This document shows, one piece after another, positions 1 through 15,521 of a stretch of 15,521 bases of DNA; positions within the stretch are counted from its first letter, which is position 1; each line of letters begins with the position of its first letter. Both the position numbers and the translations under genes were made by a program. Source of the stretch: Bacteroidota bacterium. GTDB taxonomy: Bacteria > Bacteroidota > Bacteroidia > Bacteroidales > UBA10428. Below the pieces are notes generated by a model that made no database searches, was not told where the DNA came from, and was given only the letters and a program-made list of their open reading frames with translations. The stretch lies in NCBI GenBank assembly GCA_024640925.1, contig JAHEEB010000007.1, positions 1 through 15,521 on the forward strand, in the 5' to 3' direction.

Positions 1-861
1 GTAGTAACCAATATACTGGAAGGTGCACAAAATGTTTCTATTGCAAGCGGCCAGATTAGTAGTACTACGCAGCAGCTATCGCAGGGAGCCAATGAGCAGG
101 CATCAACAACAGAACAAGTAACTTCGTCGATGGAGCAGATTTTTGCCAGCATACAACAAAACAGCGAAAATGCTTCGCTGACAGATTCAATTGCAACAAA
201 ATCGGCAAAGAGTATGAAAGATTTGTATAGTGCTTCTGAAAAGAGCCTGATATCGGTAAAAGAGATTACCAATAAAATTAGTATTATAAACGATATAGCG
301 TTCCAGACCAATATTTTAGCTTTAAATGCAGCCGTTGAAGCTGCAAGGGCTGGTGAACACGGAAGAGGTTTTGCCGTTGTTGCAGCCGAAGTGCGGAAAT
401 TGGCGGAAAGAAGTAAAACTGCAGCCAACGAAATTGTCGATTTGTCCCAGACGAGTCTTGATGTCACTGAGAAAACGGTTAGTCAACTTTCTTCCATAAT
501 CCCCGAAATTGAAAAAACAGCCGCACTTGTTCAGGAAATCTCTGCATCGAGTAAGGAACAGAATACAGGTAGTAACCAAATCAATAATGCTGTTCAACAA
601 TTAAGCCAGGTTACTCAGCAAAATGCCGCCGCATCGGAAGAAATTGCCACCAGTGCCGAACAGTTAGCCTCTCAGGCAGAACAATTAAAAGATATAGTAA
701 ATTTCTTTAAGGTGGATCAGCTATCCCTTAAAAGAAATATAATTCAGTCAGCCACTGCAAAAGAAAGCAAGAAACATAGAGAAGAATCTTTCTCTAAAGG
801 TACCTCAAAACATTTACTGAAACTTAAAACCGATGATGACAAGGATTTTGAAAGCTTTTAA
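1..861 (+). CDS. Methyl-accepting chemotaxis protein, C-terminal signalling domain (5' partial)
   Basis: The reading frame is open from base 1, so the gene starts outside the window; 286 residues are visible and the first in-frame ATG at 130 is internal. The protein is a long Ala/Gln/Ser/Glu-rich coiled coil. At the centre is the highly conserved hairpin tip of chemoreceptors ([20 protein letters not shown], followed by [20 protein letters not shown], about 298-408), which binds the CheA kinase and the CheW adaptor. Repeated Gln/Glu pairs in the flanking helices resemble methylation sites for CheR/CheB. The sensor domain, membrane segments and HAMP domain are not in view. The C-terminus is a charged tail ending in ESF and shows no NWETF-type CheR/CheB tether. 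The family call is firm, but the ligand and the motility type cannot be told. It converges with the phosphoketolase gene and is not part of the lysine operon. Confidence 0.95.
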
Positions 862-933
862 TGGTAATAGAAATAAGATAGTTTGTGCCGTTTTTTAACC
901 TTCTATCTATTCGAAAAGGAATCTTTGTAATAA

Positions 934-963
934 AAAAAACAGGATGAGTTTATCCTGTTTTTT
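934..963. terminator. Bidirectional intrinsic terminator
   Basis: A perfect 12-bp inverted repeat is seen: AAAAAACAGGAT (934-945), a 6-base loop, then ATCCTGTTTTTT (952-963). The A tract on one side and the T tract on the other give a U-rich 3' end on both strands. It lies between the convergent chemoreceptor and phosphoketolase genes and probably ends transcription from both. Confidence 0.85.
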
Positions 964-983
964 GTTCTGTTTGCATCAAATCT

Positions 984-3362
984 TTAATAAGGCCATTTCC
1001 AATCCCTTATTTCGGGCATGTCTTCGCCATATTTGCTGATAAAATGTTTGTGTTCTATCAACTTATCTCTCATTTTCTGCTTGATGTATGCACCTGAATT
1101 ACCAATACTATCTACCCTGTCTACCACATCGTTTACAAGGTGGTACCGATCCAAATCATTCAGAACTACCATATCGAAAGGTGTTGTGGTAGTACCTTCT
1201 TCTTTATATCCGCGTACATGAAGATTCTTGTGGTTTTCTCTTCTGTATGTAAGCCTGTGTATTAGCCAGGGATAACCATGATAGGCAAAAATTACAGGTT
1301 TATCCTTCGTAAAAATATAATCGAAGTCTTTGTCAGACAATCCATGAGGGTGTTCCGAAGCTGGTTGCAATGTCATAAGGTCAACTACATTTACAACCCT
1401 GATTTTTAATGCTGGGACAAGTTGTCGCAGAATATCCACCGCAGCCAGGGTTTCCAGTGTGGGTATGTCGCCTGCACATGCAAGTACAACGTCGGGTTCA
1501 CTGTTATTGTCATTACTAGCCCATTCCCATATGCCTATACCTGCTGTACAATGTTTCACAGCTTCGTCCATAGTAAGATACTGCAACTGGGGTTGCTTGC
1601 CGGCAACAATCACATTTACATACTGGCGGCTTCTTAAACAATGGTCGGCAACCGAAAGTAATGTGTTTGCATCGGGTGGCAGATAAACCCGTATAATGTC
1701 TGCTTTTTTATTTACCACATGGTCGATAAAGCCCGGGTCCTGATGCGAAAATCCATTGTGGTCCTGGCGCCAGACATGCGATGTAAGTAAATAGTTCAAT
1801 GAAGATATTTTTGCCCTCCAGGGTATGTGGTTGGTAGTTTTCAGCCATTTTGCATGCTGGTTGAACATGGAATCGATAATATGGATAAATGCCTCGTAAC
1901 AGGAGAAGAATCCATGGCGCCCGGTAAGCAAATATCCTTCGAGCCAGCCCTGAAGTGTTTGTTCTCCCAAAAGTTCCATAACCCTGCCATTTGAAGACAT
2001 GTGCTCGTCTTCTTTCAGTTTTTCGAGCAGCCACACTTTATCGGTTGCTTCAAAAACATCGGCTAACCGGTTCGAAGCTGTTTCGTCGGGACCCATTATC
2101 CTGAAGTTCTTATGCTCTTCGTTCAGCTTCATCACATCTTTCAGAAATTTACCCAATGCCCGGGTCGATTCGGCAACTACTGTTCCTGGTTTATCCATTT
2201 TAACAGCATAGTCTCGGAAATCGGGCATGGTCAAATCGCGCAAAAGCAATCCGCCATTAGCATGCGGGTTAGCACCTATTCTCTGTTTTCCTTTTGGAGC
2301 AAGAGTAGCTAATTCATCTTTCAGTTTTCCTTTATCATCGAAAAGTTCTTCGGGCTTATAGCTCTTCATCCATGTTTCTAACTCTTTAATGAGGGCCGGA
2401 TTTTCTTTAAACCCGGTAAGCGGAACCTGGTGCGAGCGCCAGGTATCTTCCATTTTCTTTCCTTCAACAACTTTTGGTCCTGTCCATCCTTTAGGTGTTC
2501 TGAGGACAATCATTGGCCAGGTTGGCAGCTCCTTGAATCCATTCTTTCGGGCTTCCTGCTGTATCGTTTGTATCTTTTTAATGATTCTGTCAGTTGTACG
2601 GGCCATTAAATCGTGAATTTCCTCCGGATCGTTTCCTTCGATAAAATAAGGTTGATATCCATGCCCCCTGAATAATTGTTCGAGTTGAGCATCACTTGTC
2701 CGGGCCATTACCGTGGGATTCGATATTTTATATCCGTTCAGATGAAGGATAGGCAGAACAGCCCCATCGCGTACGGGGTTTAAAAATTTGTTTGAAACCC
2801 AGCTCGATGCTAAAGCTCCTGTTTCGGCTTCACCATCGCCAATAACGCAGCAAACAATCAAATCGGGATTATCGAAAGCTGCTCCGTGTGCATGAGAAAG
2901 AGCATAACCCAACTCTCCTCCATCGTGAATAGAACCGGGGGTTTCGGGTGCCACATGGCTTGGTATGCCCCCAGGGAATGAAAATTGTTTGAACAGCCTG
3001 TTTATTCCTTCCTCGTTCTGGGGTATGTTTGGATAAACCTCGGAATAGGTTCCTTCGAGATAAGCATTGGCAACCAGTGCGGGACCACCATGACCGGGCC
3101 CGGTAATATACATCATGTTCAGGTCATACTTTTTAATGGCTCTGTTCATGTGAACATAGATTAGATTCAGTCCGGGACAGGTACCCCAATGCCCCAAAAG
3201 CCTGGGTTTAATATGGTTAATCGATAACGGCTCTTTTAAAAGTGGATTATCGTACAAGTAAATCTGTCCGACTGATAAGTAATTAGCGGCACGCCAGTAT
3301 GCTATTAGTTTTTTTAGCTCCTCGGCTGCCAGATAACTGTGTTTTGTGTTTTTTGATTTCAC
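984..3362 (-). CDS. xfp: Xylulose-5-phosphate/fructose-6-phosphate phosphoketolase
   Basis: This thiamine-diphosphate enzyme cleaves xylulose 5-phosphate (and often fructose 6-phosphate) with phosphate to acetyl phosphate plus glyceraldehyde 3-phosphate (or erythrose 4-phosphate), in the cytosol. The 792-residue length is usual for the family. Visible motifs are HWGT (58-61), TGPGHGG (87-93), the phosphoketolase signature DGGELGY (147-153), and the second signature ending in GDGEAETG (about 160-182), which binds thiamine diphosphate and Mg. The start is GTG at 3362-3360; the conserved N-terminal [15 protein letters not shown] begins about 20 residues later, so the start must be close to this. 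No Shine-Dalgarno sequence is seen. It stands alone: no acetate kinase or phosphotransacetylase is adjacent, and a 302-base gap separates it from the lysine operon on the same strand. It probably has its own promoter, although read-through cannot be excluded. Confidence 0.96.
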
Positions 3363-3664
3363 GGTACAAAGTTTTATTTCTATTAAAATTACGATTTTGA
3401 ATATAGAAATGCACGAATATTCTCGTTAATTAAACAGAAAATCATGCATTTTAAACGAAAAACAATCCTGAAAAGGTTTTTGTTTAAAAAAGTACAGTGG
3501 AAATTATCAATTACCAGGAAAAAATTCTGAAAAGTTTAGGAAAAAGTTCACTTCGGAAGGAATTTGCCACAAAAACGAAAACTCCAAAAACTGTCATCTA
3601 TTTTGAAAAAACACAATGACATTTACTGCTTTCTTCTCAAATCCATTAAAGATAAAGTAAACGA
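3363..3664. other. AT-rich intergenic region between saccharopine dehydrogenase and phosphoketolase
   Basis: No gene is seen in these 302 bases. On the - strand it must hold the 3' end of the long operon and the promoter of xfp. A weak inverted repeat TGTCAT/ATGACA (3592-3597 with 3616-3621, 18-base loop) is followed on the - strand by GTTTTTGG and could be a poor terminator for the operon. Near the xfp start, the - strand reads AAACTTTGTACC, which partly resembles the Bacteroidota -7 element TAnnTTTG, but no convincing -33 element was found. Both readings are weak. Confidence 0.4.
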
Positions 3665-5008
3665 TTAAGGTAGCAGTTCAACACTCTTTTCCCTGAATAC
3701 AATGTTATAATTTTCCAGTTCTTTCAGAATTGGCTCATAGATTTCTTTTATGGTAGGAATATAGACACCCTCCAACCTGATTTGTCCGGTAAGAACCATT
3801 TTTGTAGCTATACCAAGTGGCAGCCCAACGGTTTTGGCCATGGCTGTGTTTACGGAATCGTCGCCTGCAACAACAAGTGAAGTTGTTAATAGGGTAGGCT
3901 TCTGCTGATTTGCTTGATGGAAGATAAATTTATGCCACATTACAAGCATATCTTTATCACCTGGTTCCAGCACCCATTTATTACAAATGATGCGCTCCAG
4001 AATCTGAGCCGGGGTTGCATTCTTCAAACCAATTTTTGTGTTATCAAATATACCTAACCATTCAAGTTTTTCGCGGACATCTGAATCCTGATCAATATGC
4101 ATATAATGATAAAGCTTAGTTTTTACCGGATCTTCGCGACTGTAATAAAGAAACGAATTAATAAACTCCTTATAGGTCATTTCTTCTGTATTGTTCATGG
4201 TATATGAATCGTCTGTAGCACCTAACTGGACAAAGACATCCCAGGCACGGCAAAACCCCGGGCGGCGAAGCGTACCCCTGTATACGGTTGGGACACCCCT
4301 GAGATTGTATTTTTCGATATATTTTAATGAATCACGGTTGGCATATCCTTCAAATTTTCCATATCCCTGGATATCGATTACTTCGGTACGACGAAAAAGT
4401 CTGTGGTAAGGAATATACTTATAGGTTCCTTCCTGTATAAAACGGGCTGGGCCACCTTGTCCTGCGAGAACAACATTGCGTGGATTCCAGGTAATCTTAT
4501 AATTCCAAGGATTGTTATCCGATTCGGGCGCCATTAGTCCACCGGTGAAGCTTTCAAAACATTTCAATTCATGTCCCTGTTCCCTAATCCGGTCAATCAC
4601 ATGCATGGCCGACATATGGTCAATACCAGGATCAACGCCCATTTCATTCAAAAAAAGAATACCCTGAGCTTTTGCCTGCGTTGCCATTTCCAGTATCTCA
4701 GGTGATTCGTAAGATGCTGTGAGAAGCGATCGTGAATATCTAAGGCAGGCTAATGCAACTATCGGGTGGAATCGGGCTGGTAACATGGAGACTACGATAT
4801 CGGCACGTTGAACTTCTTCGTTTAACTGTTTTTCATTAAAAACATCGAAGGTAATTGTCCTTACAGAAGGCGAAACCTTAGCCAGAACAGATTGAATGTC
4901 ATTATCTCCAACAGTTATTTCCCAGCTATATTTTTGTGCATTCTCCTCAAGGTAGCGGATGAGCACTGAGGATGAACGACCAGCGCCGATAATCAATATT
5001 TTTTTCAT
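3665..5008 (-). CDS. Saccharopine dehydrogenase (L-glutamate-forming), SDH half of the saccharopine pathway
   Basis: It oxidises saccharopine with NAD(P)+ to alpha-aminoadipate semialdehyde plus glutamate. The 447-residue protein has an N-terminal Rossmann fold (ILIIGAGRSSS, residues 4-14), SMLP (74-77), the conserved GVDPGIDHM (124-132), and the family block GGL..PESDNNPWNYK (156-171), then RGTLRRPGF (244-252). These are the hallmarks of the saccharopine reductase/SDH family (fungal LYS9, C-terminal half of animal AASS). It lies 40 bases downstream of the lysine-ketoglutarate reductase gene and is the last gene of the operon. In animals the two activities are fused; here they are separate, adjacent genes. 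The ATG start at 5008 sits directly before the Rossmann strand, so it is secure. Direction (degradation rather than synthesis) is inferred from the ALDH7 neighbour. Confidence 0.93.
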   Translation of the reverse strand: MKKILIIGAGRSSSVLIRYLEENAQKYSWEITVGDNDIQSVLAKVSPSVRTITFDVFNEKQLNEEVQRADIVVSMLPARFHPIVALACLRYSRSLLTASYESPEILEMATQAKAQGILFLNEMGVDPGIDHMSAMHVIDRIREQGHELKCFESFTGGLMAPESDNNPWNYKITWNPRNVVLAGQGGPARFIQEGTYKYIPYHRLFRRTEVIDIQGYGKFEGYANRDSLKYIEKYNLRGVPTVYRGTLRRPGFCRAWDVFVQLGATDDSYTMNNTEEMTYKEFINSFLYYSREDPVKTKLYHYMHIDQDSDVREKLEWLGIFDNTKIGLKNATPAQILERIICNKWVLEPGDKDMLVMWHKFIFHQANQQKPTLLTTSLVVAGDDSVNTAMAKTVGLPLGIATKMVLTGQIRLEGVYIPTIKEIYEPILKELENYNIVFREKSVELLP

Positions 5009-5048
5009 AGTTCATTACTTACTAAAATCTGTTGGTTTTTATACTTTC

Positions 5049-6260
5049 TTAATCCGGCTGGTTCACCCAATCGTCCAGGTAGTTGTATTTTTCTGTTAGT
5101 TTTCCGTCCTGTGCAATGGTAGCCCTTAAAATAACATTTTCATCGTCTCCGGAAAGCAATAAGGGAAGAACATGGTTTATAATATTTTGTCCAAAATCTT
5201 TTGAAGCTTCGGCAGGTAATCCGCAGGGGAGATTGTCGATCGCCATTACTGTAATGTTTGCAGGATTGCTGAAGGGTGGTTCTTCTTTGCCGGTATAAGG
5301 ATTAAAATCATAGTAGGGCATTTTAAAATTAGTAGTTCTTATTGTAGAGGGTATCGATCCTTCCAGATCACAGGTAATATCAGCAATTACTTTAATTCCG
5401 AAACTTTTATCTCTCATCTGGTCAGGTGTGAATAAAACAGGAGCGCGGGGATCCCAATAAGCAGCCATGATCAGGAGATCCGTTTCATTGGTAAAACGAC
5501 CAAAATCACTTTCATATTCACCTGGATTTTTGAAAAAATGTTGCAATTCAAAGGGTTTTCCTGTTTTATTCCGGTTGTATTTTTCAGGTCCAAGCTGAAC
5601 ATAAACAGATTTTTTAATGTCTGAATTTCCCAAATATTCCTCAACATCAACTTTTTTAATACCAAAAGCATCCATCATTTCCACTGAACCTCCTGCTACT
5701 CTTCCATCGCCAGTTATTGCAATTTTTACAGGAGGCAACGATACCGATGAGACTAGTTTCTTCATCTCTCCCAGTTCTCCGAAATCTTGCGGATGTGGCA
5801 GAATATTGTATTTATGCCTGATACGCATTGCCCTGATTCCTGTATAGGTGCCAACTATTCCTGCCCAACGCCCAAATCCTATGATACGTATACCATTCCT
5901 GTCGGTGAGGGTTTCGTAATCAACTAATTTTATATGTTTCTTAAGCACCGCTTTCAGAAGTTTTTTGTTATGACTTTGCTTTTTAATCGTGTGGGAAAAG
6001 AAGAAATAGGTCTTGCCAGGTATCAGTCGGGTCAGATCAACTTCTTTCACACCCATTAGCACATCACAATTGCTGAGATTAGTTTTTACCTTAATACCCA
6101 TATCCGTATATTCTGCATCCGCAAAACACCGGTTATTACCCGGTTCCACGAAAACCTTCGTGCCTTGAAATTTTTCTTCAATCATTCTGCATTGTTCGGG
6201 TGATAAGGGTACCCGGTTGTCAGCCGGTATTTTTGTCTCTCGTAATATTCCTATCTTCAT
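5049..6260 (-). CDS. Lysine-ketoglutarate reductase (saccharopine dehydrogenase, L-lysine-forming type)
   Basis: It condenses lysine with 2-oxoglutarate and reduces the imine to saccharopine with NAD(P)H. The 403-residue protein has the alanine dehydrogenase/PNT-type N-terminal domain: RETKIPADNRVPLSP (7-21), VKE (71-73), and FFSHTIKKQSHN (87-98), the region carrying the substrate Lys/His residues in this family. A dinucleotide-binding segment ITGDGRVAGG (182-191) follows, then ADITCDLEGSIP (293-304) and DNLP (342-345). These match the LKR half of AASS and fungal LYS1 rather than alanine dehydrogenase. It starts with ATG only 12 bases after the ALDH7 gene and is followed by the SDH gene, so the two halves of the saccharopine route are co-transcribed. 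No Shine-Dalgarno sequence is seen. The cofactor (NADH or NADPH) cannot be read by eye. Confidence 0.93.
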   Translation of the reverse strand: MKIGILRETKIPADNRVPLSPEQCRMIEEKFQGTKVFVEPGNNRCFADAEYTDMGIKVKTNLSNCDVLMGVKEVDLTRLIPGKTYFFFSHTIKKQSHNKKLLKAVLKKHIKLVDYETLTDRNGIRIIGFGRWAGIVGTYTGIRAMRIRHKYNILPHPQDFGELGEMKKLVSSVSLPPVKIAITGDGRVAGGSVEMMDAFGIKKVDVEEYLGNSDIKKSVYVQLGPEKYNRNKTGKPFELQHFFKNPGEYESDFGRFTNETDLLIMAAYWDPRAPVLFTPDQMRDKSFGIKVIADITCDLEGSIPSTIRTTNFKMPYYDFNPYTGKEEPPFSNPANITVMAIDNLPCGLPAEASKDFGQNIINHVLPLLLSGDDENVILRATIAQDGKLTEKYNYLDDWVNQPD

Positions 6261-6272
6261 ATAACTTTGTAA

Positions 6273-7826
6273 TTAGGTTGAAACTTTAAATTCAATTCCT
6301 TGTGCCAGAGGAAGCTCCGAACTATAATTTATCGTGTTTGTCTGCCGTCGCATATAAACTTTCCATGCGTCAGAGCCCGATTCGCGACCTCCTCCCGTAT
6401 CTTTCTCTCCTCCAAAAGCGCCACCGATTTCGGCTCCGGAGGTCCCGATATTTATATTAGCAATACCGCAATCAGAGCCTGCGTGTGAAAGAAACTTTTC
6501 TGTTTCCTGCAGATTGTTGGAAAACATGGCTGAAGACAAACCTTGCGGGACAGAATTATGGATCTGAATGGCTTCCTCCAATGTCTGATACCGTATCAGG
6601 TATAACAAAGGTGCAAATGTTTCCTCCTGTACTATCTGATACTGATTCTCAACTTCGGCAATGCAAGGTGTAACATAGCAACCTGAAGAACAATTTTTAT
6701 CATCTACCGGATTGCCTCCATAAACAATCTTCCCTCCAGCCTTCTTTACTTCGTCTACTGCTCTGTAGAATTTTTCTGCAGCAAGTTTGTCAATAAGTGG
6801 CCCAACATGTGTTCCGGGATCCAGTGGATTGCCAATCTTCAGGCTACTGTAAACTTTCACCAGCCTGTCCATGAACTCGTCAAACAGTGAATTATGCAAT
6901 ATAATCCTTCGTGTAGATGTGCAACGCTGCCCTGCAGTTCCAACTGCCCCAAATACAACAGCATGCATAGCAAGTTCTATGTTAGCTGCTGGCGTAACTA
7001 TGATGGCATTGTTGCCTCCAAGTTCCAGGATTGTCCTGCCCAGACGCTCACCAACAAACCTGCCAACCTGTTTTCCAATTATTGTTGACCCTGTGAAGGA
7101 AATTAATGGTATATTTTTGTCCTTGAAAATATCATGGCCAAGGTATTTTGAGCTGGTGGCAACCAGGTTGAGCACTCCTTCTGGCACGTTATTTTCAGAA
7201 AGTACCTTTGCTATTATTTTATGTACCGCAATAGCACAAAGCAATACCTTGGAAGAGGGTTTCCAAAGCACTACATCGCCGCATACCAGTGCAATCATGG
7301 CGTTCCATGACCATACTGCCACTGGAAAGTTAAAAGCAGAGACGACTCCAACGATGCCCAGAGGATGGTACTGTTCGTACATACGATGACCGGGACGCTC
7401 GGAATGCATACTCAATCCATATAGCTGTCGTGACAGTCCTACTGCAAAATCGCATATATCAATCATTTCCTGTACTTCGCCTAAACCTTCCTGGTATATC
7501 TTTCCCATTTCCCAGCTCACCAGCTTACCCAAGGGTTCCTTATATTTCCTGAGTTCCACACCAATAAGCCGAACGATTTCTCCTCTTTTGGGAGCAGGAA
7601 TCATACGCCACTCTTTGAAAGCTTCACTGGCTTTGGAGACCAATATTTCATAATCTTTCAGAGTACATTGTTTTATGCCAGCAATTGAACTCCCATCTGC
7701 TGGTGAAAACGAAGTCAATACATCACCAATTGTGTTAATCCACTTTGTTCCAGTGCATAAACCGGGATTTATGGCTTCTATTCCCAGTTCTTTCAGCATT
7801 TGTTGAACACCATAATTTTTATCCAT
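6273..7826 (-). CDS. Alpha-aminoadipate semialdehyde dehydrogenase (ALDH7/antiquitin type)
   Basis: It oxidises alpha-aminoadipate semialdehyde (in equilibrium with piperideine-6-carboxylate) to alpha-aminoadipate with NAD(P)+. The 517 residues include the oxyanion Asn in FNFP (N166), the general base Glu in LELGG (E268), and the nucleophile Cys in GQRCTSTRR (C302). The C-terminal stretch FGGEKDTGGGRESGSDAWK (471-489), continuing to PLAQGI (506-511), is what I remember of human ALDH7A1, with the same length class, so the subfamily is well supported. It sits directly upstream of LKR and SDH, completing lysine to aminoadipate. Its presence argues for lysine breakdown, because synthesis would need an ATP-dependent aminoadipate reductase instead. 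Its start lies 14 bases beyond a 12-copy heptamer array that occupies its leader. Confidence 0.95.
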   Translation of the reverse strand: MDKNYGVQQMLKELGIEAINPGLCTGTKWINTIGDVLTSFSPADGSSIAGIKQCTLKDYEILVSKASEAFKEWRMIPAPKRGEIVRLIGVELRKYKEPLGKLVSWEMGKIYQEGLGEVQEMIDICDFAVGLSRQLYGLSMHSERPGHRMYEQYHPLGIVGVVSAFNFPVAVWSWNAMIALVCGDVVLWKPSSKVLLCAIAVHKIIAKVLSENNVPEGVLNLVATSSKYLGHDIFKDKNIPLISFTGSTIIGKQVGRFVGERLGRTILELGGNNAIIVTPAANIELAMHAVVFGAVGTAGQRCTSTRRIILHNSLFDEFMDRLVKVYSSLKIGNPLDPGTHVGPLIDKLAAEKFYRAVDEVKKAGGKIVYGGNPVDDKNCSSGCYVTPCIAEVENQYQIVQEETFAPLLYLIRYQTLEEAIQIHNSVPQGLSSAMFSNNLQETEKFLSHAGSDCGIANINIGTSGAEIGGAFGGEKDTGGGRESGSDAWKVYMRRQTNTINYSSELPLAQGIEFKVST

Positions 7827-7840
7827 AGAATATTTTGTTT

Positions 7841-7924
7841 GTGATCTGTGATCTGTGATCGGTGATCTGTGATCGGTGATCTGTGATCGGTGATCGGTGA
7901 TCTGTGATCGGTGATCTGTGATCG
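7841..7924. repeat. Perfect tandem heptamer array, 12 copies of GTGATC(T/G)
   Basis: Twelve units of 7 bases run without indels, with only the seventh base varying (T T G T G T G G T G T G in + strand order). It lies in the 147-base gap between the upstream dehydratase gene (ends at 7974) and the ALDH7 gene (starts at 7826), so on the coding (-) strand it sits in the ALDH7 leader. The unit length is not a multiple of three and the stretch is noncoding. Copy number may vary between strains. Confidence 0.95.
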
Positions 7925-7983
7925 GTAATTACTATTTACTCATCACTCATCACTGCTCACAGATCACTATTCACTATTCACTG
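7925..7983. repeat. Degenerate continuation of the heptamer repeat, in inverted sense
   Basis: On the - strand this region reads as diverged 7-base units of the form AGTGAnn (AGTGAAT twice, then AGTGATC, TGTGAGC, AGTGATG twice and others). It contains TCACAGATCAC at 7957-7967, the exact reverse complement of GTGATCTGTGA, which occurs six times in the neighbouring array. The two parts can therefore fold into a hairpin in several registers. The end of the repeat provides the last codons and the TAG stop of the dehydratase gene at 7974. Confidence 0.8.
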
Positions 7984-9746
7984 ATCAAATTCACCAATCC
8001 TCCTTTCTCCAGTATTTGCAATAATTTATCAGGCAAAGGATTGAATTGGATTTTTTTGTTTGCAATAGTAATACAGCCTGCTCCCATATCAATTTTTATT
8101 TCATCGCCCTGTTTATATGCTTCAATTGCCTCAGGTACAACCAATATCGGCAATCCCTGATTCACCGATGAGCGGAAGAATATTCTGGAAACTGATTTGA
8201 CCAATACCGCTTTAATTCCTATGGATACCAATCCTACAGCAGGATGCTCCCTGGAACTTCCGCATCCGAAGTTTTCTCCGCAAACCATAATGTCTCCCAT
8301 CTTTGCTCTGGCAGAAAACTGTTCATCGAAACCTTTTAATAAATGAGGAATGATTTTCTCAGGCTGCGAACTGTTTATTTCGTACGTCAGGTTCCCCGCA
8401 AACATCTGGTCGGTATTCAGATTGTCGACATCTTTATAATTCCAGACACCATTCGCATAACGGCAATCCGACTTTTCAATGATAATTGTTTCAGATTGCT
8501 TTATAAGATAAGGAAACTTCGATTTAATCGTATTGTCAGCAGGTGAGGTAATTTCACCCATTATAGCGGAGATTGCTACTGTAGCTGGTGAAGCGAGGTA
8601 AATAGATGCTTTCGGATTGCCCATTCTACCCAGGAAATTGCGGTTAGCTGTGGAAATTACATTGATACCATCCGCGGGAATTCCCTGTCCTGTTCCCAGG
8701 CATGGTCCGCAGGAAGGGGTAAGAATACTGGCACCAGATGCCAGAAATATCTCTGCCAATCCTTCTTTGATAGCTTTTAGGTATATATCACGCGATGCAG
8801 GGGTTATCAACAACTGAACGCCTTCTTTTACCTTTTTCTCTTTTAAGATTTTGGCTGCTATACGCAAATCTTCAATGCGGCCATTCGTACAGGTACCTAT
8901 CAGTGCCTGATTTATAAGTGTGCCGGCTATTTCATCTATGCTTTTTATATTGTCAACATGGTGTGGACAAGCAGCCAGAGGATACAACGCCGACAGATCT
9001 ATTTCATATTCTTTTTTATAGCTTGCATCAGGGTCGGCCCATATACCAGGTGTCCGTTGTCCGATATGACCAAACAACTGCTCATCTGCCTTGAAAACAG
9101 CATTTTTCGCTCCCATCTCCGAAGCAAGATTGGCTATTGTCATTCTGTCGGCAATTGTTAATGTTTTCACTCCTTCACCGTGATATTCAACAGACATATA
9201 GTCAGCTCCACTGGAACCAATCATTCCGATTATATGTAAAGCTAAATCTTTGGCATATACATTCTTTGGCAACCAGCCATGTAGGGTTATCTTCATCGAT
9301 TCAGGAACCCTGAACCAAGTTTCCCCATGTTTCCATAACCCTGCCGTCTCTGTACGGTCAATTCCTGTGGCAAAAGCATTAAAAGCACCGGCCGTACACG
9401 TGTGACTGTCGCTTCCGACAACTATCATGCCGGGAAGGGCATATTTCTCCATTAATTGATGACAGATTCCTTCGCCAGCATCATGAAAACGCTTTATGCC
9501 CTGGTCACGGACAAATGTTCTTATTTGCTGATAATCATTCGCCAGTTTGCTGTTGGTTGGCGGAGCATTATGGTCAAGCACTATCAATAACTGATCGGGG
9601 TTAAAAACCTTAGAACCATTCATTTTACGAAAAGTACTTTCTATACTGGAAGTATTATCATGACTGAGAATAATATCCGGCTTATGAAATACAATACTGC
9701 CAGCTGGTGCGCTAAATATTTTCTCGACAAATGTTTGTTTTGCCAT
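7974..9746 (-). CDS. Fused aconitase/isopropylmalate-isomerase-type hydro-lyase (second of two)
   Basis: This 590-residue [4Fe-4S] dehydratase joins a large (LeuC-like) and a small swivelling (LeuD-like) domain in one chain. Motifs in order are SHDNTSS (28-34), LDH (57-59), GSDSHTC (111-117), the cluster cysteines in TCTNGR (C286) and SCGPC (C346, C349), and the swivel-domain GCGSSREHPA (494-503). The small-domain specificity loop, where isopropylmalate isomerases have a YLRT-like motif, reads NLNTDQMFAGNLTY (442-455) and is different. All cluster ligands are present, so it should be active. By context it may dehydrate or hydrate (homo)citrate, (homo)aconitate or (homo)isocitrate; leucine synthesis is unlikely here because no leuA/leuB is seen. 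It starts 11 bases after the upstream dehydratase. Family firm, substrate inferred. Confidence 0.9.
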   Translation of the reverse strand: MAKQTFVEKIFSAPAGSIVFHKPDIILSHDNTSSIESTFRKMNGSKVFNPDQLLIVLDHNAPPTNSKLANDYQQIRTFVRDQGIKRFHDAGEGICHQLMEKYALPGMIVVGSDSHTCTAGAFNAFATGIDRTETAGLWKHGETWFRVPESMKITLHGWLPKNVYAKDLALHIIGMIGSSGADYMSVEYHGEGVKTLTIADRMTIANLASEMGAKNAVFKADEQLFGHIGQRTPGIWADPDASYKKEYEIDLSALYPLAACPHHVDNIKSIDEIAGTLINQALIGTCTNGRIEDLRIAAKILKEKKVKEGVQLLITPASRDIYLKAIKEGLAEIFLASGASILTPSCGPCLGTGQGIPADGINVISTANRNFLGRMGNPKASIYLASPATVAISAIMGEITSPADNTIKSKFPYLIKQSETIIIEKSDCRYANGVWNYKDVDNLNTDQMFAGNLTYEINSSQPEKIIPHLLKGFDEQFSARAKMGDIMVCGENFGCGSSREHPAVGLVSIGIKAVLVKSVSRIFFRSSVNQGLPILVVPEAIEAYKQGDEIKIDMGAGCITIANKKIQFNPLPDKLLQILEKGGLVNLISE

Positions 9747-9757
9747 AGTTTATGTGA

Positions 9758-11563
9758 TTATATCATTAACAGATCCCCTTTCTCGTAAATCATCTTCTGT
9801 ACATCGGAAAATGCAGAAATTTGGATGGTTTTATTATTCCTGGAGTTAGTTAATGTTCCTTTCTCCATATCAAGGATGACTTTGTCCCGATTTTCAAGCT
9901 CCAATTCTCCCAAGTTAACATATGTTAATACCGGGAATCCTGCATTGATGGCATTTCGTTCATAAATTGCGCCGAATGATTCCGCCAGTATTGCATGGTT
10001 TTCCAGTGCCTTGAAACAATCTACGGCATGTTGTCTCGAACTTCCGGCGCCGAAATTCTTTCCGGTAATTATGATATCGCCGGGCTCCGACTTTTGTGGA
10101 TAATTTTCCCATCCTTTCAGGTTACCCAGGGCATATTGCCCCATCTGTTTTATATCGGTTATGGCAAGATGCTGATTATGATAAATCATGTCTGTATCAA
10201 TATTGTCGCGGAAAATAAGCCATACCTTTCCTTCCAGGATCATTTTCTTTTCGGGCAAATATGAATCACTTACCGTTTTGGCTTTGGCTGGTCCGGCAGA
10301 AACTTTATAAACTGAAGGTGTTTGCGGTATGGCATCTTTTGTAGTGATATGACCAGCAATAGCTGAAGCCATAGCCGTAGAAACAGAAGCCAGGTAAACC
10401 TCCCCTTTCCCTTGCTTACCCTCGAAGTTGCGATTACCTGTGCTTATGGTTTTTTCTCCGGGGCCATTCTGACCAATTTGTCCCGATGCACAACCTGCAC
10501 AACCTGCATTACCGAATAAAGCACCAGCCGATTTGAAAATTTCAATCAGCCCTTTGCGCAGACAGTGGTTCCAAATCTCATCGGTCGAAGGAACTATCTT
10601 AAGAACTACACCGGGAGCAACTTTCCTGTCCTTCAGGAGTCTGGCAGCTTCATTCATATCTTCTACCCTGCCGTTGGTGCAACTTCCGATAAACACTGAA
10701 TCGATTTTAGTCCCCATAACATCCTTCACCGGCACAACATCGTGAGGTTTGCCTGGTAATGATATAACGGGAAAGAAATTCTCCAGATCGATTTCAAAGG
10801 TCTTTTCATACATTGAATCTGAATCGGCATATACAGGATTAAAATCAACGAATGAGCGAGAACGGCAATAGTCTAATACATTGTGTGAAGGTGGGAAAAG
10901 AAGGATAATGGCTCCCATTTCAGTGGCCATGGAAGAAATTGTGATCCGTTCATCAAGCGTTAAGGCTTCCACTCCATCGCCATATAATTCAACAGAGTAA
11001 CCGAGAAGTCCATCGGCACCAAATTTCTTTAACAGGTTCAGGGCAATGTCTTTTGCCGAAACCAGTTTTGGCCTTTTACCCTTTAGTATGATTTTTATTG
11101 ATTCGGGGATTTTAAACCAGATCGATCCGCGTGACCAGGCTGCAGCTATATCACGATCACCCATACCTTGTCCGAAGGCCCCAATTGCACCCAGAATATT
11201 GGCATGTGAGTCGGTTGATACAAGCGTTGAGCCAGGTGTGGCTATCCCCTCCTCAATAGCCAGGTGTGTGCCTATTCCAGCATTAATATCGTATACCGTA
11301 ATATTATTTTCTCTCGCGTACAGCCTGCATTTTTGCTGATTTGAGGCATATTGCTGGTCGGATCCTGTCGGATTGCAGTCGAACGTAAAAAATGTTTTAT
11401 CGGGGTCAGCAACAAGTAGATTATTCGCCTGCAAATTCTTGACCACACCAGCCCCACCAAAATCGCGAGCCAGTCGTACATCAATCAGAACATCAACAAT
11501 TTCTCCCGGAACTACTTTGTCTTTTCCGCAATGCGAAGCAAGTATTTTTTCAATAATAGTCAT
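9758..11563 (-). CDS. Fused aconitase/isopropylmalate-isomerase-type hydro-lyase (first of two)
   Basis: This 601-residue LeuC-LeuD fusion clearly differs in sequence from its neighbour, so the pair is not a recent duplication. It shows STDSHAN (116-122), the cluster cysteine in SCTNGR (C295), two further cysteines in GCAGC (C355, C358), and a swivel-domain GAGSSRQHA (505-513). It deviates from the usual pattern in two places: the common DH pair of the N-terminal region reads DC (62-63), and the usual PxCGxC cluster motif reads AGCAGC. The small-domain loop reads NIDTDMIYHNQHL (454-466), unlike isopropylmalate isomerase. It is placed between the HD-like gene (3-base gap) and the second dehydratase. 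Two dehydratases could share the two half reactions between homocitrate and homoisocitrate, as reported for yeast Aco2 and Lys4. The substrate is inferred only. Confidence 0.88.
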   Translation of the reverse strand: MTIIEKILASHCGKDKVVPGEIVDVLIDVRLARDFGGAGVVKNLQANNLLVADPDKTFFTFDCNPTGSDQQYASNQQKCRLYARENNITVYDINAGIGTHLAIEEGIATPGSTLVSTDSHANILGAIGAFGQGMGDRDIAAAWSRGSIWFKIPESIKIILKGKRPKLVSAKDIALNLLKKFGADGLLGYSVELYGDGVEALTLDERITISSMATEMGAIILLFPPSHNVLDYCRSRSFVDFNPVYADSDSMYEKTFEIDLENFFPVISLPGKPHDVVPVKDVMGTKIDSVFIGSCTNGRVEDMNEAARLLKDRKVAPGVVLKIVPSTDEIWNHCLRKGLIEIFKSAGALFGNAGCAGCASGQIGQNGPGEKTISTGNRNFEGKQGKGEVYLASVSTAMASAIAGHITTKDAIPQTPSVYKVSAGPAKAKTVSDSYLPEKKMILEGKVWLIFRDNIDTDMIYHNQHLAITDIKQMGQYALGNLKGWENYPQKSEPGDIIITGKNFGAGSSRQHAVDCFKALENHAILAESFGAIYERNAINAGFPVLTYVNLGELELENRDKVILDMEKGTLTNSRNNKTIQISAFSDVQKMIYEKGDLLMI

Positions 11564-11566
11564 ATC

Positions 11567-12112
11567 CTATTTTAGCCTGTTTTTAAAGGAGAGAAATGTC
11601 ATAAAATCGGCATGATGCACTATATATGCCTCTGTAGAACGCTTTACCATGTCACCTTCACCAGCATGAGTGGCAATAATATGGCATACTTCAGGCGGAA
11701 CGCCACATTGTTCTGCCAGGGAAACTCCGGAAAAAGGATGTCTGATATATTCACCATATCTTCCCTGAACGCAATTGCCATCATCATCCAATATATATTC
11801 AAGCATTTTGCCCACATCAGCAAGCATTGCGCCCGCAATGAGTACATCCATATCCACTGGAAGTTCGTCCTTAAAAAACTCATGGAATATGAGGCCACAC
11901 TCCCGGGCAATATGAACTACAGCCCTCTTGTGAGCCATAAAGCTTACTTTCAGATTGGGACCAGCCAGAAGAGTAAAAGGAATCTTATGTAAATCTTCGA
12001 TTTTCAGGACACTTTTTTGCAGCGCCAGCTCCCAGGTTTTAGCAGTCTTTTTTCGCAGATCTTTATCTTGAATCCACTCCAACTCAGGCCAAAGTTCTGT
12101 TAAAGTTGTCAT
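11567..12112 (-). CDS. Small HD-domain-like protein with an altered HD pair
   Basis: This 181-residue soluble protein has no signal peptide or membrane segment and resembles the HD phosphohydrolase fold. Candidate metal ligands are H61 (MAHKRAVVHIA), D99, H125 (RHPFSG), H149 (ATHAGEGD) and D169 (HHADF). The central motif, normally HDxGK, reads ADVGK (98-102), so the His of the defining pair is replaced by Ala while the rest looks kept. It may still bind metal through other residues, or may have become a binding or regulatory protein. It lies tightly between the dehydrogenase and dehydratase genes (22 and 3 bases), which suggests a role tied to the pathway, but I cannot name one. The start is ATG at 12112. 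Confidence 0.75.
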   Translation of the reverse strand: MTTLTELWPELEWIQDKDLRKKTAKTWELALQKSVLKIEDLHKIPFTLLAGPNLKVSFMAHKRAVVHIARECGLIFHEFFKDELPVDMDVLIAGAMLADVGKMLEYILDDDGNCVQGRYGEYIRHPFSGVSLAEQCGVPPEVCHIIATHAGEGDMVKRSTEAYIVHHADFMTFLSFKNRLK

Positions 12113-12134
12113 ATAGTCAGTTATTAATAGAGTA

Positions 12135-13322
12135 TCACAACTTTTTAATTATCGCGTCTCCCATTTCCCTTGTCGATGATGCTCCCATTTTCACAACATC
12201 GGGACTTCCTTTCATTTTAAGCATGTCATATGTACGGACCTTACCTTCTTTGATAACATTGGCTATTGCGGTCCTGATTTTTGTTGCCAGGGTATTTTCC
12301 TGCAAATGATCCAACATCATGCAGGCCGATTCGATCATAGCAATGGGATTAACAATTGAAACCGGATAGTTGGCATATTTTGGCGCTGAACCATGAGTAG
12401 GCTCAAACACAGCGACATCCCTACCCAGATTTGCACTGCATGCAAAGCCAAGACCACCGATCAGACCGGCAAATCCATCTGAAACAATATCTCCAAACAT
12501 ATTACCTGCCACAATCACACCATAATCTTCCGGATTTTTTGTCAGCCACATCATCTGAGCATCAATATTTGTGTTCCACAATTCAATGCCGGTGAATTCA
12601 TTTTGTATCTGCTTTGCCATATTGTACATCATGCCGGATGTTTCGCGGATAACATTTGGCTTTTCGCATAATGTAACTGATTTGTATCCATTCTTTGCTG
12701 CATGCTCAAATGCTGCCCGCAGAATTCTTTCAGTAGCTTTTCGAGTGAAAATTCTCGTAGATACCGCAATCTCCTCAGGAGGAACATTGACAAAGTTTTT
12801 CGCAAAGTTTTTATGAGTCCGCAAAGCCTCGTATACAATCCCTGCGGGATTACTCCATTCCACGCCGCAATATAATCCCTCCGTATTCTGTCTGAAAATA
12901 ACAACATCCACTACAGGTTCCTCTATTTCACCCTTAGCACCCCGTCGGATGAAGTTCAACGGATTCCCTTTATATGTGTGACAAGGCCTGATACAGATAT
13001 CAAGGTTAAAAAGCTGTCGCATACCAACGATAGGACTGGAATACACAAGTCCCTTTCCTTTCAAATCCGGTAAGAGCTCAGCTGCAGCCTCCTCATTTGG
13101 TTTGGATGTTATAGCACCAAATAATCCAACCTTGTGTTCCTTGAGGAGTTCGATTGTACGTTCCGGCAGAGGATTTCCTTCCCGGCACCATAAATCCCAC
13201 CCGATATCACCTTTAATGTAATCGGCATCAAACCCCACAGCATCGAGCACTCTGATTGCTTCCTGCATTACAACCTGACCTATTCCGTCGCCAGGCATTA
13301 CAACAATGGTTTTCGTTGACAT
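12135..13322 (-). CDS. Isocitrate/isopropylmalate-family dehydrogenase, probably homoisocitrate dehydrogenase
   Basis: This 395-residue beta-decarboxylating dehydrogenase shows GDGIG (11-15), the substrate loop YSSPIVGMR (94-102), R112, RQNTEGLY (144-151), K221, D254, metal ligands around NMFGDIVSDG (274-283), and EPTHGSAPKYA (307-317). The loop matches what I remember of fungal homoisocitrate dehydrogenase (YSSPIVALR) and differs from the SLNVALR of E. coli isocitrate dehydrogenase, where Ser and Asn hold the gamma-carboxylate. This points to homoisocitrate <-> 2-oxoadipate + CO2. The K315-Y316 and Y365/K369 pattern resembles the NADP-binding residues of E. coli Icd rather than the Asp-Ile of NAD enzymes. 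By context it may run reductively, carboxylating 2-oxoadipate derived from lysine. A plain isocitrate dehydrogenase is the main alternative. Confidence 0.88.
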   Translation of the reverse strand: MSTKTIVVMPGDGIGQVVMQEAIRVLDAVGFDADYIKGDIGWDLWCREGNPLPERTIELLKEHKVGLFGAITSKPNEEAAAELLPDLKGKGLVYSSPIVGMRQLFNLDICIRPCHTYKGNPLNFIRRGAKGEIEEPVVDVVIFRQNTEGLYCGVEWSNPAGIVYEALRTHKNFAKNFVNVPPEEIAVSTRIFTRKATERILRAAFEHAAKNGYKSVTLCEKPNVIRETSGMMYNMAKQIQNEFTGIELWNTNIDAQMMWLTKNPEDYGVIVAGNMFGDIVSDGFAGLIGGLGFACSANLGRDVAVFEPTHGSAPKYANYPVSIVNPIAMIESACMMLDHLQENTLATKIRTAIANVIKEGKVRTYDMLKMKGSPDVVKMGASSTREMGDAIIKKL

Positions 13323-13326
13323 AATC

Positions 13327-13740
13327 TTAATTTTTGATGTTAGCCACCTGTCTCACTACATCAATCACCGTTCCATCCACCCATTTGATTGCTGCAACAA
13401 TCTTTTCTCTAAAAACCGGTTTTTGTGGTTTGCCGCAAATAAACTCTGCTTCATCTTTCAGTTGACTAAGTGTTTTAACAGGTAGGTCTGACCCACTGAT
13501 TTTTTCTATGAGATCAGGCCGTAATGGATTCACTGCAATGCCTCTTTCTGTGATTACAACATCGATAAGTTCACCAGGTCCGCAAAGCGTGGTTACCTCA
13601 TCTCTAATCACGGGTATACGATCACGAAACAACGGAACAGGCAGTATAACTGTTTTGCCAAACAGACAATTCTGCCATCCGCCAATGCCATGCAGCAGAT
13701 ATCCATCGGAATGACTTACTACATTGGCATTGAAGTTCAA
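13327..13740 (-). pseudogene. citF: Citrate lyase alpha subunit, C-terminal part, after an in-frame stop
   Basis: This stretch continues the citF frame two codons after a TAA (13749-13747). It encodes about 138 residues typical of the alpha-subunit C-terminus, including FNANVVSHSDG and GIAVNPLRPDLIEKI. Its only possible start is TTG at 13740, in the middle of the conserved sequence (IDLNFN) and without a Shine-Dalgarno sequence, so it is best read as the severed end of citF rather than a gene of its own. No further stop or frameshift is present, so the break is either very recent, a sequencing error, or bypassed. The dehydrogenase gene begins 4 bases beyond its stop. Confidence 0.8.
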
Positions 13741-13746
13741 ATCTAT

Positions 13747-14892
13747 TTACGTGGCGCCCAGAATCGCAACATCCACCATGCTTGCAAAATTGCCCTTGCT
13801 ATGGTAGTTGTAGCTGGTAAAAGGACTTGTCATCACATGCCTTGGATTATCGCGAATAGAACGTACACCTTCGAGATCAAAAGTCTGACCATCGAGAATA
13901 TATTCCACCAAGCCTTCCTCAAGCATCTGAACCAGGTATTTATTACTGCCTCCCCTGGCAAACCTGGCTTTTATTCCTTTTTCCCTCATTATTTCAGCAA
14001 AAAAGTTTCCTACAGATAGAGCAGTACCTCCAGCTCCGGTCTGAAAGGAAAAGCCATTATGTATAATCCCGGTTATGTCGCAAAATCTGGCCGTCATCTC
14101 GGCAAGGAGCAACCTATCGGGACTACGTGTGATTTCGGTAGTTCCTGAAACAATCTTTTCGGGAATGCCAACCTGGTCGACTTTTACTGTGAAATCAACA
14201 TAATTTCCCTGGATTTGCCATGGTATGCAAGGGAAAGCCACCATGTTATCCGTTACAACTATTACCCTGTTGGCATATTGTGCATCGGCCAAAGCAAAGC
14301 CAAGCAAGCCACTGGCTGAATTACCGTTTACTCCATTGGCATTACCAAAAGTATCGGCACAACCCGCACCAATAACAGCGATGTCAATTTTTACATCTCC
14401 ATCCTGAATAGCTTGGTACCTGCCGCCATGAGAACGCAGCACTGCCGTTTTACTCATTTTACCTTCAGAACAGTAACGACCCAGCGGACCATTCATGCTT
14501 CCTTCGATGTGACTAATTGTACCATCGTCGAGGTATTTAAGTAAGTATGAATGACAAGGGAAGGACGCAGAAGGAAACCAGCACAAATTTTTGATCCCAA
14601 GCTCATGAGCACAATCAAACACCATGTTAGCTACAAGGTCACCTTCCCTGAAATGATGGTGTGTGGAGATGGTCATCCCATCCTTTAAACCTGCTTTAAC
14701 AAGAGCTTCTTTTAGTGTGGATATTTGTTTGTTACCATCAGAAGGATAATCGATGTTAGAAGGTATTCGTGGAGCAAAACGATTACCTGTCGGTTGGTAT
14801 TTACCAACCCCTTTGAAGGGCACAACCGGTTTGCCGTTAATACTGGTAGGTACGAACCGGCCTGCAGCATTTTTAACCAGATTATTGCTCAT
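13747..14892 (-). CDS. citF: Citrate lyase alpha subunit (acyl-ACP:citrate transferase type), interrupted by a TAA
   Basis: The alpha subunit exchanges the acetyl group on the lyase acyl carrier protein for citrate (or a homologue) and releases acetate. The 381 residues before the stop show HHHFREGD (78-85), GSMNGPLGR (131-139), SHGGR (154-158) and a Gly-rich FQTGAGGTALSVG (283-295), all expected for CitF. The reading frame ends at TAA within a conserved stretch: LGAT-stop-IDLNFN, where the family as I remember it has LGALEIDxxFN, so TAA probably replaces GAA (Glu). With the next segment the gene would be about 520 codons, the normal length. ATG overlaps the citE stop by four bases (ATGA), and there is a good Shine-Dalgarno sequence, GGAGGG, just upstream. 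By context the true substrate may be homocitrate. Confidence 0.9.
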   Translation of the reverse strand: MSNNLVKNAAGRFVPTSINGKPVVPFKGVGKYQPTGNRFAPRIPSNIDYPSDGNKQISTLKEALVKAGLKDGMTISTHHHFREGDLVANMVFDCAHELGIKNLCWFPSASFPCHSYLLKYLDDGTISHIEGSMNGPLGRYCSEGKMSKTAVLRSHGGRYQAIQDGDVKIDIAVIGAGCADTFGNANGVNGNSASGLLGFALADAQYANRVIVVTDNMVAFPCIPWQIQGNYVDFTVKVDQVGIPEKIVSGTTEITRSPDRLLLAEMTARFCDITGIIHNGFSFQTGAGGTALSVGNFFAEIMREKGIKARFARGGSNKYLVQMLEEGLVEYILDGQTFDLEGVRSIRDNPRHVMTSPFTSYNYHSKGNFASMVDVAILGAT

Positions 14893-15521
14893 TTGTAATC
14901 CCTCCAGTTTTTTGGTACTTTCCCTGCACGAACAGCTCTTTCGATGATCTTTAGGGCTCTTTTGACAACAGGCAAATCAACCATTTTCGAATCGATAACT
15001 ATAACCCCGGAGCCTTCCTGCTCTGCCTTTTCATAGGCAATCACTATCTTTTTAGCTTTCTCCGACTCCATCGCATCCGGAAGGAAATTTTCATTGATTA
15101 CAGGTACCTGTCGCGGATGTATGCACCCCATGCCCTCAAATCCAAGAGATTTGGAATCAATGACATTACGGGCCAGCGCTGCCAAATCATCAATGCCGGA
15201 AAATACAGAATCAATGGGTTGTATGCCAGCAGCTCTGGCAGCATTAACTACCATACAACGGGCAAAGAAAGATTCTTTTCCATCGGGTGTTCTCTGTGTA
15301 CCAATATCAGCGGTATAATCCTCAAGGCCAATAGCCAGGGCGACAACATTTTCGGAGGCACGGGCAATTTCAAATGCATTCATAACACCTAAAGCACTTT
15401 CAATTATGGGCATCAGGTGAATTGTGCTGTTTTTATGACCCAGAATTTCTGATATCTTCTTATCGGCTTCCAAAACATGAGAAACATGCTCACATTTAGG
15501 TATAAGAACAAGGTTAACCTG
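14889..15521 (-). CDS. citE: Citrate lyase beta subunit / HpcH-CitE family lyase (5' partial)
   Basis: The frame stays open to the right edge, so the N-terminal part is missing; 210 residues are visible. The beta subunit cleaves citryl-ACP (or a related acyl thioester) to acetyl-ACP plus oxaloacetate (or 2-oxoglutarate for homocitryl). Visible motifs are the metal-binding Glu in PIIESALG, the Asp in GLEDYTADIGTQRT, FARCMVVNAARAAG, and the loop GFEGMGCIHPRQV. All fit CitE. It ends with a TGA that overlaps the citF ATG, so the two subunits are translationally coupled. The acyl carrier protein CitD, expected upstream in a classical cluster, would lie beyond the edge if present. Without it, a CoA-thioester lyase (citramalyl- or malyl-CoA type) remains possible, but the pairing with citF favours a citrate-lyase-type complex. 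Confidence 0.92.
   Translation of the reverse strand, partial: QVNLVLIPKCEHVSHVLEADKKISEILGHKNSTIHLMPIIESALGVMNAFEIARASENVVALAIGLEDYTADIGTQRTPDGKESFFARCMVVNAARAAGIQPIDSVFSGIDDLAALARNVIDSKSLGFEGMGCIHPRQVPVINENFLPDAMESEKAKKIVIAYEKAEQEGSGVIVIDSKMVDLPVVKRALKIIERAVRAGKVPKNWRDYK
14898..14910 (-). promoter_or_regulatory. Shine-Dalgarno sequence of citF inside the end of citE
   Basis: On the - strand the sequence before the citF ATG reads CTGGAGGGATTACAA. The GGAGGG lies about 7 bases from the start and within the last codons of citE. Most other starts in this operon have no such site, so this one and the ATGA overlap together fix the citF start. Confidence 0.75.

Follow-up and report, generated by a model that had tools for sequence, protein, structure and literature searches.

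What would a bacterium make of an operon that joins genes for lysine degradation to relatives of homoisocitrate dehydrogenase, homoaconitase and citrate lyase? Such an operon lies on the minus strand of contig JAHEEB010000007.1 of a Bacteroidota bacterium (assembly GCA_024640925.1), whose draft genome spans 5.67 Mb over 1131 contigs and is 81.9% complete; the window analysed here is the whole stretch of 15,521 nucleotides at positions 1-15521 of this contig. In order of transcription, the nine genes encode a CitE-like lyase subunit, a CitF-like CoA-transferase subunit, a dehydrogenase of family PF00180, an HD-domain protein, two dehydratases (Acn1 and Acn2), an ALDH7-type aldehyde dehydrogenase, a protein resembling lysine-2-oxoglutarate reductase (LKR) and a saccharopine dehydrogenase (SDH). 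Intergenic distances range from -4 to 40 bases, the sole exception being 147 bases before the ALDH7 gene. We propose that the operon probably encodes a lysine catabolic route that proceeds via reductive carboxylation of 2-oxoadipate and cleavage of homocitrate, as judged from its genes and their conservation. An operon of this kind had been described in the initial annotation; its genes were recovered at the stated positions, all on the minus strand, with the addition of the HD-domain gene, which had been left out.

According to our proposal, LKR, SDH and ALDH7 would convert lysine to 2-aminoadipate with formation of one glutamate, and a putative aminotransferase would yield 2-oxoadipate. The PF00180 enzyme would carboxylate this compound reductively to homoisocitrate, which the two dehydratases would convert via cis-homoaconitate to homocitrate. 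The complex of CitF and carrier-fused CitE would then act as a homocitrate lyase, releasing acetate and 2-oxoglutarate, so that the route would amount to a reversal of the alpha-aminoadipate pathway to lysine in which a lyase takes the place of homocitrate synthase. The net reaction given in the initial annotation, lysine + 2-oxoglutarate + CO2 + H2O -> 2 glutamate + acetate, was computed to be atom-balanced, and the reaction types suggest that hydrides are balanced as well (two in, two out). High CO2 and the downhill ALDH7 step would aid the reductive carboxylation, and a host might use the route for fermentation or to fuel respiration. The proposal rests on gene content, order, conservation, co-occurrence and atom balance, from which we infer every substrate, the aminotransferase step, the physiology and the direction in which the route runs.

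To trace the cluster, species genomes, one for each species, were scanned with an alignment of the dehydrogenase as query, and the best 80 loci were kept. The complete nine-gene order is present in six of them (L096, L097, L098, L100, L110 and L174), on which ground a chance neighbourhood was rejected, and a partial order in L099, L122, L140, L147, L152 and L162, several of which are ended by contig edges. Homologues of ALDH7 are also found on the stretches L099, L140, L152 and L160, the last an Anaerolineales contig (58% identical). Since Prolixibacter denitrificans (L098) and Carboxylicivirga linearis (L100), both with the whole operon, are isolates, direct testing is possible. Conservation of the neighbourhood in other genomes also removes one of the objections that the initial annotation had raised against its own proposal.

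In a sample of 296 genomes from the phylum, a dehydrogenase match at E <= 1e-60 was obtained for 38 genomes including the source, with 26 others being 65–71% and 11 being 50–55% identical. The former 26 together with G184 form a set of 27 genomes chosen for the dehydrogenase or the cluster. Pooling the 27 stretches of this set with the 80 loci gave 107 stretches, each extending at most ~10 kb to either side and many ended by contig edges; 51 of them hold the dehydrogenase, CitE and CitF. Contigs that carry a related dehydrogenase and at least part of the cluster bear the labels Bacteroidota, Neomarinimicrobiota, Chloroflexi/Anaerolineales, Chlorobiota and Aminicenantes. A tree of 105 dehydrogenases was built by a quick method, with sequences of up to 370 residues omitted; 32 of its 102 inner branches are drawn open. 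On this tree, the lysine-linked form of the cluster (9 rows) requires five changes, three of them forced by starred branches. The close dehydrogenases L119, L136, L143, L145, L152, L160 and L175, from contigs labelled with the four phyla or groups other than Bacteroidota, are scattered among Bacteroidota in this tree, which suggests transfer between phyla or mislabelled bins.

At the lysine end, all three enzymes of the saccharopine route are encoded together. ALDH7 (6273..7826) is assigned by a curated model as L-piperidine-6-carboxylate/aminoadipate semialdehyde dehydrogenase (796.9 bits, cut-off 730). SDH (3665..5008) matches PF16653 with 251.2 bits (cut-off 31), and the LKR-like protein (5049..6260) has an AlaDh_PNT N-terminal domain and stands beside SDH. 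In NCBIfam, SDH had no match and LKR only a distant one below the cut-off; both were assigned by Pfam domains and place.

Co-occurrence across genomes links these genes to the cluster. Outside the class of the window the phylum sample comprises 223 genomes, the 27 of the set and 196 others, the latter including ten with a 50–55% identical dehydrogenase (G014, G055, G078, G097, G160, G172, G180, G196, G251 and G287). SDH was found in 12/27 set genomes versus 3/196 others (Fisher P 2.8e-10) and ALDH7 in 24/27 versus 59/196 (P 4.8e-9), both values being uncorrected for kinship; of the three others with SDH, two (G055 and G251) are among the ten just named. A lysine entry enzyme, either SDH or lysine 6-aminotransferase, is encoded in 26 of the 27 set genomes, one of which (G152) has both. 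For 10 of the 12 SDH genomes an LKR homologue stands beside SDH and/or ALDH7 in the stretches examined (not seen for G066 and G152), and the genes for lysine 6-aminotransferase and ALDH7 lie together within at most 20 kb in 12/15 genomes, the exceptions being G035, G135 and G156. In G116 (L189), the contig that encodes CitF also encodes homologues of ALDH7, SDH and LKR, ~4 kb beyond the CitF gene. The match to lysine 6-aminotransferase on L169 is not counted, being a distant aminotransferase of 28.9% identity.

The PF00180 dehydrogenase (12135..13322) was classified as homoisocitrate-dehydrogenase-like from Pfam, NCBIfam and structure matches. Among the NCBIfam models, those of methanogen homoisocitrate dehydrogenases rank before those of isocitrate dehydrogenases, all of them below cut-off, and the homoisocitrate dehydrogenases 3asj and 1x0l are the second-ranked structure matches. 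In the window and in 11 relatives, the enzyme reads Ser-Pro-Ile in a stretch which we take to be substrate-binding (Ile in 12/12 aligned). The homoisocitrate dehydrogenase structures 3asj and 1x0l have Ile at the same position, whereas this residue is replaced by Asn in the isocitrate dehydrogenases 6lky, 6m3s and 6ltf and in three E. coli chains. Two further E. coli isocitrate dehydrogenase chains carry Leu there and are presumably engineered mutants. An attempt to read specificity from a short stretch by comparison with solved structures was rejected, its matches being weak (E 0.19 and up). Window and relatives also share a Lys-Tyr within the stretch HGSAPKY, which we regard as a mark of NADP use.

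Two different dehydratases follow in the operon. Acn1 (9758..11563) is an aconitase/homoaconitase-family protein with fused large and small domains, assigned by domain matches, and Acn2 (7974..9746), likewise with a fused small domain, belongs to the homoaconitate hydratase family (subfamily model TIGR01343, 496.3 bits, cut-off 385.7). With the homoaconitase model TIGR00139 (cut-off 529.9), both fall short at 226.9 bits (Acn1) and 327.2 bits (Acn2), and a homoaconitase-family protein of the related cluster L041, the one protein scored, reaches 881.3 bits. Homologues of the latter, 51–77% identical, are present in 26 of the 27 set stretches including L041 itself, and 22 of the 27 contain a dehydratase of the PrpD family; these two families were named by models for L041 only, and by homology in the other stretches. 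Where the dehydrogenase, CitE and CitF occur together, 35 of 51 stretches contain two kinds of dehydratase in one of three pairings: homoaconitase with PrpD (22), Acn2 with Acn1 (11) or Acn2 with PrpD (2). As far as described in parts of PMC3556520, homocitrate isomerisation in fungi requires two enzymes, shared by aconitase and homoaconitase. The paired dehydratases recall this pathway, since two different enzymes are used in both.

The cleavage step is assigned to the lyase. Within the window, citE (14889..15521) encodes the C-terminal 210 amino acids of the beta subunit. The window ends at the start of ten N within this gene, and the contig continues: past this scaffold gap, at ~15532-16050, it encodes the N-terminal part of CitE, to whose N-terminus a CitD/acyl carrier protein (ACP) domain is fused (PF06857, E 6e-15). 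A lyase devoid of a carrier was rejected on this account, as was a seeming frame change in citE, which corresponds to the scaffold gap; the counted stop was read as lying upstream of the start codon. CitF (13327..14892), the alpha subunit, was identified with family models and an alignment of relatives. As in CitDEF of E. coli K-12, alpha, beta and acyl-carrier parts of a citrate lyase are all present, although the carrier is fused to CitE in the cluster. CitF is 39.4% identical to E. coli CitF over 464 aligned residues and CitE 38.8% to E. coli CitE over 201. The intervening HD-domain protein (HDIG; 11567..12112, by domain match) is conserved with the cluster, a homologue being present in 50 of the 51 stretches that hold the dehydrogenase, CitE and CitF; its role is possibly linked to the carrier arm of the lyase.

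Several observations weigh against the proposed route. The best NCBIfam score of the dehydrogenase is 268.8 bits, with an equivalog cut-off of 540 for homoisocitrate dehydrogenase, and its top match among solved structures, 6lky, is named isocitrate dehydrogenase. Acn1 and Acn2 are under every listed equivalog cut-off, and neither kind of dehydratase is within reach in 13 of the 51 stretches, with a single kind in 3. The 27 set stretches hold CitE and CitF in 19 cases, CitE alone at an edge in two and neither in six. CitF of L041 exceeds the cut-off of the model for the alpha subunit of citrate lyase, and CitE of L041 is closest to the citE model, below its cut-off. As the initial annotation had noted, the aminotransferase step is missing: none of the nine genes encodes such an enzyme. 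G047 has no entry enzyme, and G047, G035 and G156 have no ALDH7. In G051, G062, G066, G070 and G224, SDH is located apart on a stretch of its own that has no LKR homologue, and in G031 and G124 an LKR homologue stands beside lysine 6-aminotransferase, with no SDH. Mere presence of ALDH7 (153/296) or lysine 6-aminotransferase (150/296) is a weak indicator, because both are common in the phylum. The gene coding for CitF is interrupted by an in-frame stop (13747-13749) in a column that is invariant in all 49 other CitF sequences compared, each of more than 450 residues (shorter ones omitted). Finally, CitG and CitX, which serve the prosthetic group of citrate lyase, had matches in none of 28 genomes each, the source genome being 82% complete, and an E. 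coli control was positive for both. Taken together, the initial interpretation is partly supported: gene content, conserved order and co-occurrence back the route well, and a preference of the lyase, the dehydratases and the dehydrogenase for the homo-substrates is a prediction.

The fused carrier was compared with E. coli CitD in an alignment of CitE sequences longer than 330 residues, with two rows of later starts (L039 and L128) dropped. The position aligned with residue 14 of E. coli CitD is Arg in 45 of 48 rows and Ser in one, and 47 of 48 rows have Ser one column later; Ser14 of E. coli CitD is presumably the modified serine. Judged by sequence, the lyase is of citrate-lyase type in its predicted working, yet one of the features that define known citrate lyases is missing.

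Alternatively, the lyase half might act on citrate, converting 2-oxoglutarate via isocitrate and citrate to acetate and oxaloacetate, with the lysine genes being an adjoining aminoadipate-forming module. The lyase scores of L041, the likeness of the dehydrogenase to isocitrate dehydrogenases and the presence of lysine genes on just 10 of the 107 cluster stretches (after removal of the false call on L169, and within ~10 kb each way) would agree with this. On the other hand, an ordinary aconitase is encoded separately in the source genome (1120.5 bits, cut-off 825.35), citrate would not need two kinds of dehydratase, one of them of the homoaconitase family, the lysine entry genes co-occur and are co-linear in six loci, and the dehydrogenase does not have the Asn of the isocitrate dehydrogenases compared. 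We therefore regard the use of citrate as improbable. Since most of the steps are reversible in principle, the same enzymes might instead start from acetate and 2-oxoglutarate and build 2-oxoadipate, aminoadipate or lysine. However, ALDH7 is an oxidising aldehyde dehydrogenase and effectively one-way, and no aminoadipate reductase is encoded among the nine genes, which leaves this direction very improbable. Homocitrate production for nitrogenase was rejected by reasoning, as it would leave the dehydrogenase, the dehydratases and the lysine genes unexplained.

An explanation compatible with lysine catabolism via homocitrate cleavage is that the operon is decaying or non-functional in the source organism while the route works in relatives. 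The stop in CitF at an invariant position speaks for it; it may be a true lesion or an assembly error, because relatives carry intact copies. As the other eight genes have uninterrupted frames (the scaffold gap in citE aside), and as errors are possible in a draft of 1131 contigs, we consider decay unlikely, although less so than the use of citrate.

The route via reductive carboxylation and homocitrate cleavage would differ from known ways of lysine breakdown. In the known degradation via saccharopine and glutaryl-CoA, LKR, SDH and ALDH7 lead to aminoadipate, and 2-oxoadipate is oxidised to glutaryl-CoA, whereas 2-oxoadipate is proposed here to be carboxylated. The source genome has one acyl-CoA dehydrogenase at E <= 1e-5, which scores 147.2 bits versus a glutaryl-CoA dehydrogenase cut-off of 470. 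Described lysine fermentation employs lysine 2,3- and 5,6-aminomutases, according to portions of PMC3149608 and PMC8473912; our proposal shares with it an oxygen-independent breakdown of lysine to acetate. Unlike in that fermentation, no match to the lysine 5,6-aminomutase alpha subunit (PF09043) was found in the source genome, and three of 28 genomes had one (one over cut-off, two weak). Absences in the source genome are weak evidence, because its assembly is only ~82% complete. Fungal alpha-aminoadipate lysine biosynthesis, to the extent covered by the same portion of PMC3556520, shares the chemistry of homocitrate, homoaconitate, homoisocitrate and 2-oxoadipate and the two separate dehydratases; here the direction would be reversed, with a CitF/CitE lyase for homocitrate synthase and ALDH7 for aminoadipate reductase. 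Citramalate lyase of the methylaspartate glutamate fermentation (part of PMC8473912) likewise cleaves a hydroxy acid with release of acetate in amino acid breakdown, but has another substrate and other upstream chemistry.

In agreement with the initial annotation, which knew of no such route, no description of lysine breakdown via homocitrate cleavage and no paper on homocitrate lyase activity were found in the open-access full text of PubMed Central, a scope that mostly leaves subscription papers outside. We see the chances as balanced for the wider claim of a new lysine catabolic pathway that combines reductive carboxylation of 2-oxoadipate with a homocitrate lyase, is entered by saccharopine or by lysine 6-aminotransferase, and has a carrier arm made by something other than CitG/CitX. 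If true, this would add a CO2-consuming route of lysine breakdown that has no glutaryl-CoA step, and an enzyme activity, homocitrate lyase; in clusters of this kind, members of the isocitrate/isopropylmalate dehydrogenase family and of the citrate lyase family could then be reassigned.

Further observations concern variants and neighbours of the cluster. All 11 genomes with a 50–55% identical dehydrogenase have lysine 6-aminotransferase, versus 150/296 overall. In one of them (G078; L197, 7050-14544), an aldehyde dehydrogenase, a lysine 6-aminotransferase (645.9 bits, cut-off 520.8) and a homoisocitrate-dehydrogenase-like protein are clustered with a methylisocitrate-lyase-family protein (below cut-off), an aconitase-family large subunit and a small-subunit-like frame; this cluster may provide a second way of processing 2-oxoadipate. 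On L062 (4699-8905), L111 (2-3706) and L125 (1203-5379), subunits resembling those of sodium-pumping biotin decarboxylases adjoin the dehydrogenase and/or CitE/CitF; carboxyltransferase and OadB were named by models on L062 only, those of L111 and L125 being cluster members. The aldehyde dehydrogenase frame of the Anaerolineales contig L160 (14584-17226) also encodes the FtsH-like domains AAA and M41 peptidase, a fusion that could stem from the assembly. In the source contig, one further open frame of no assigned kind lies past the part encoding the fused CitD/ACP and CitE. At its other end, the operon is immediately followed on the same strand by a phosphoketolase gene (984-3362), past which a chemotaxis-receptor fragment is encoded on the opposite strand.

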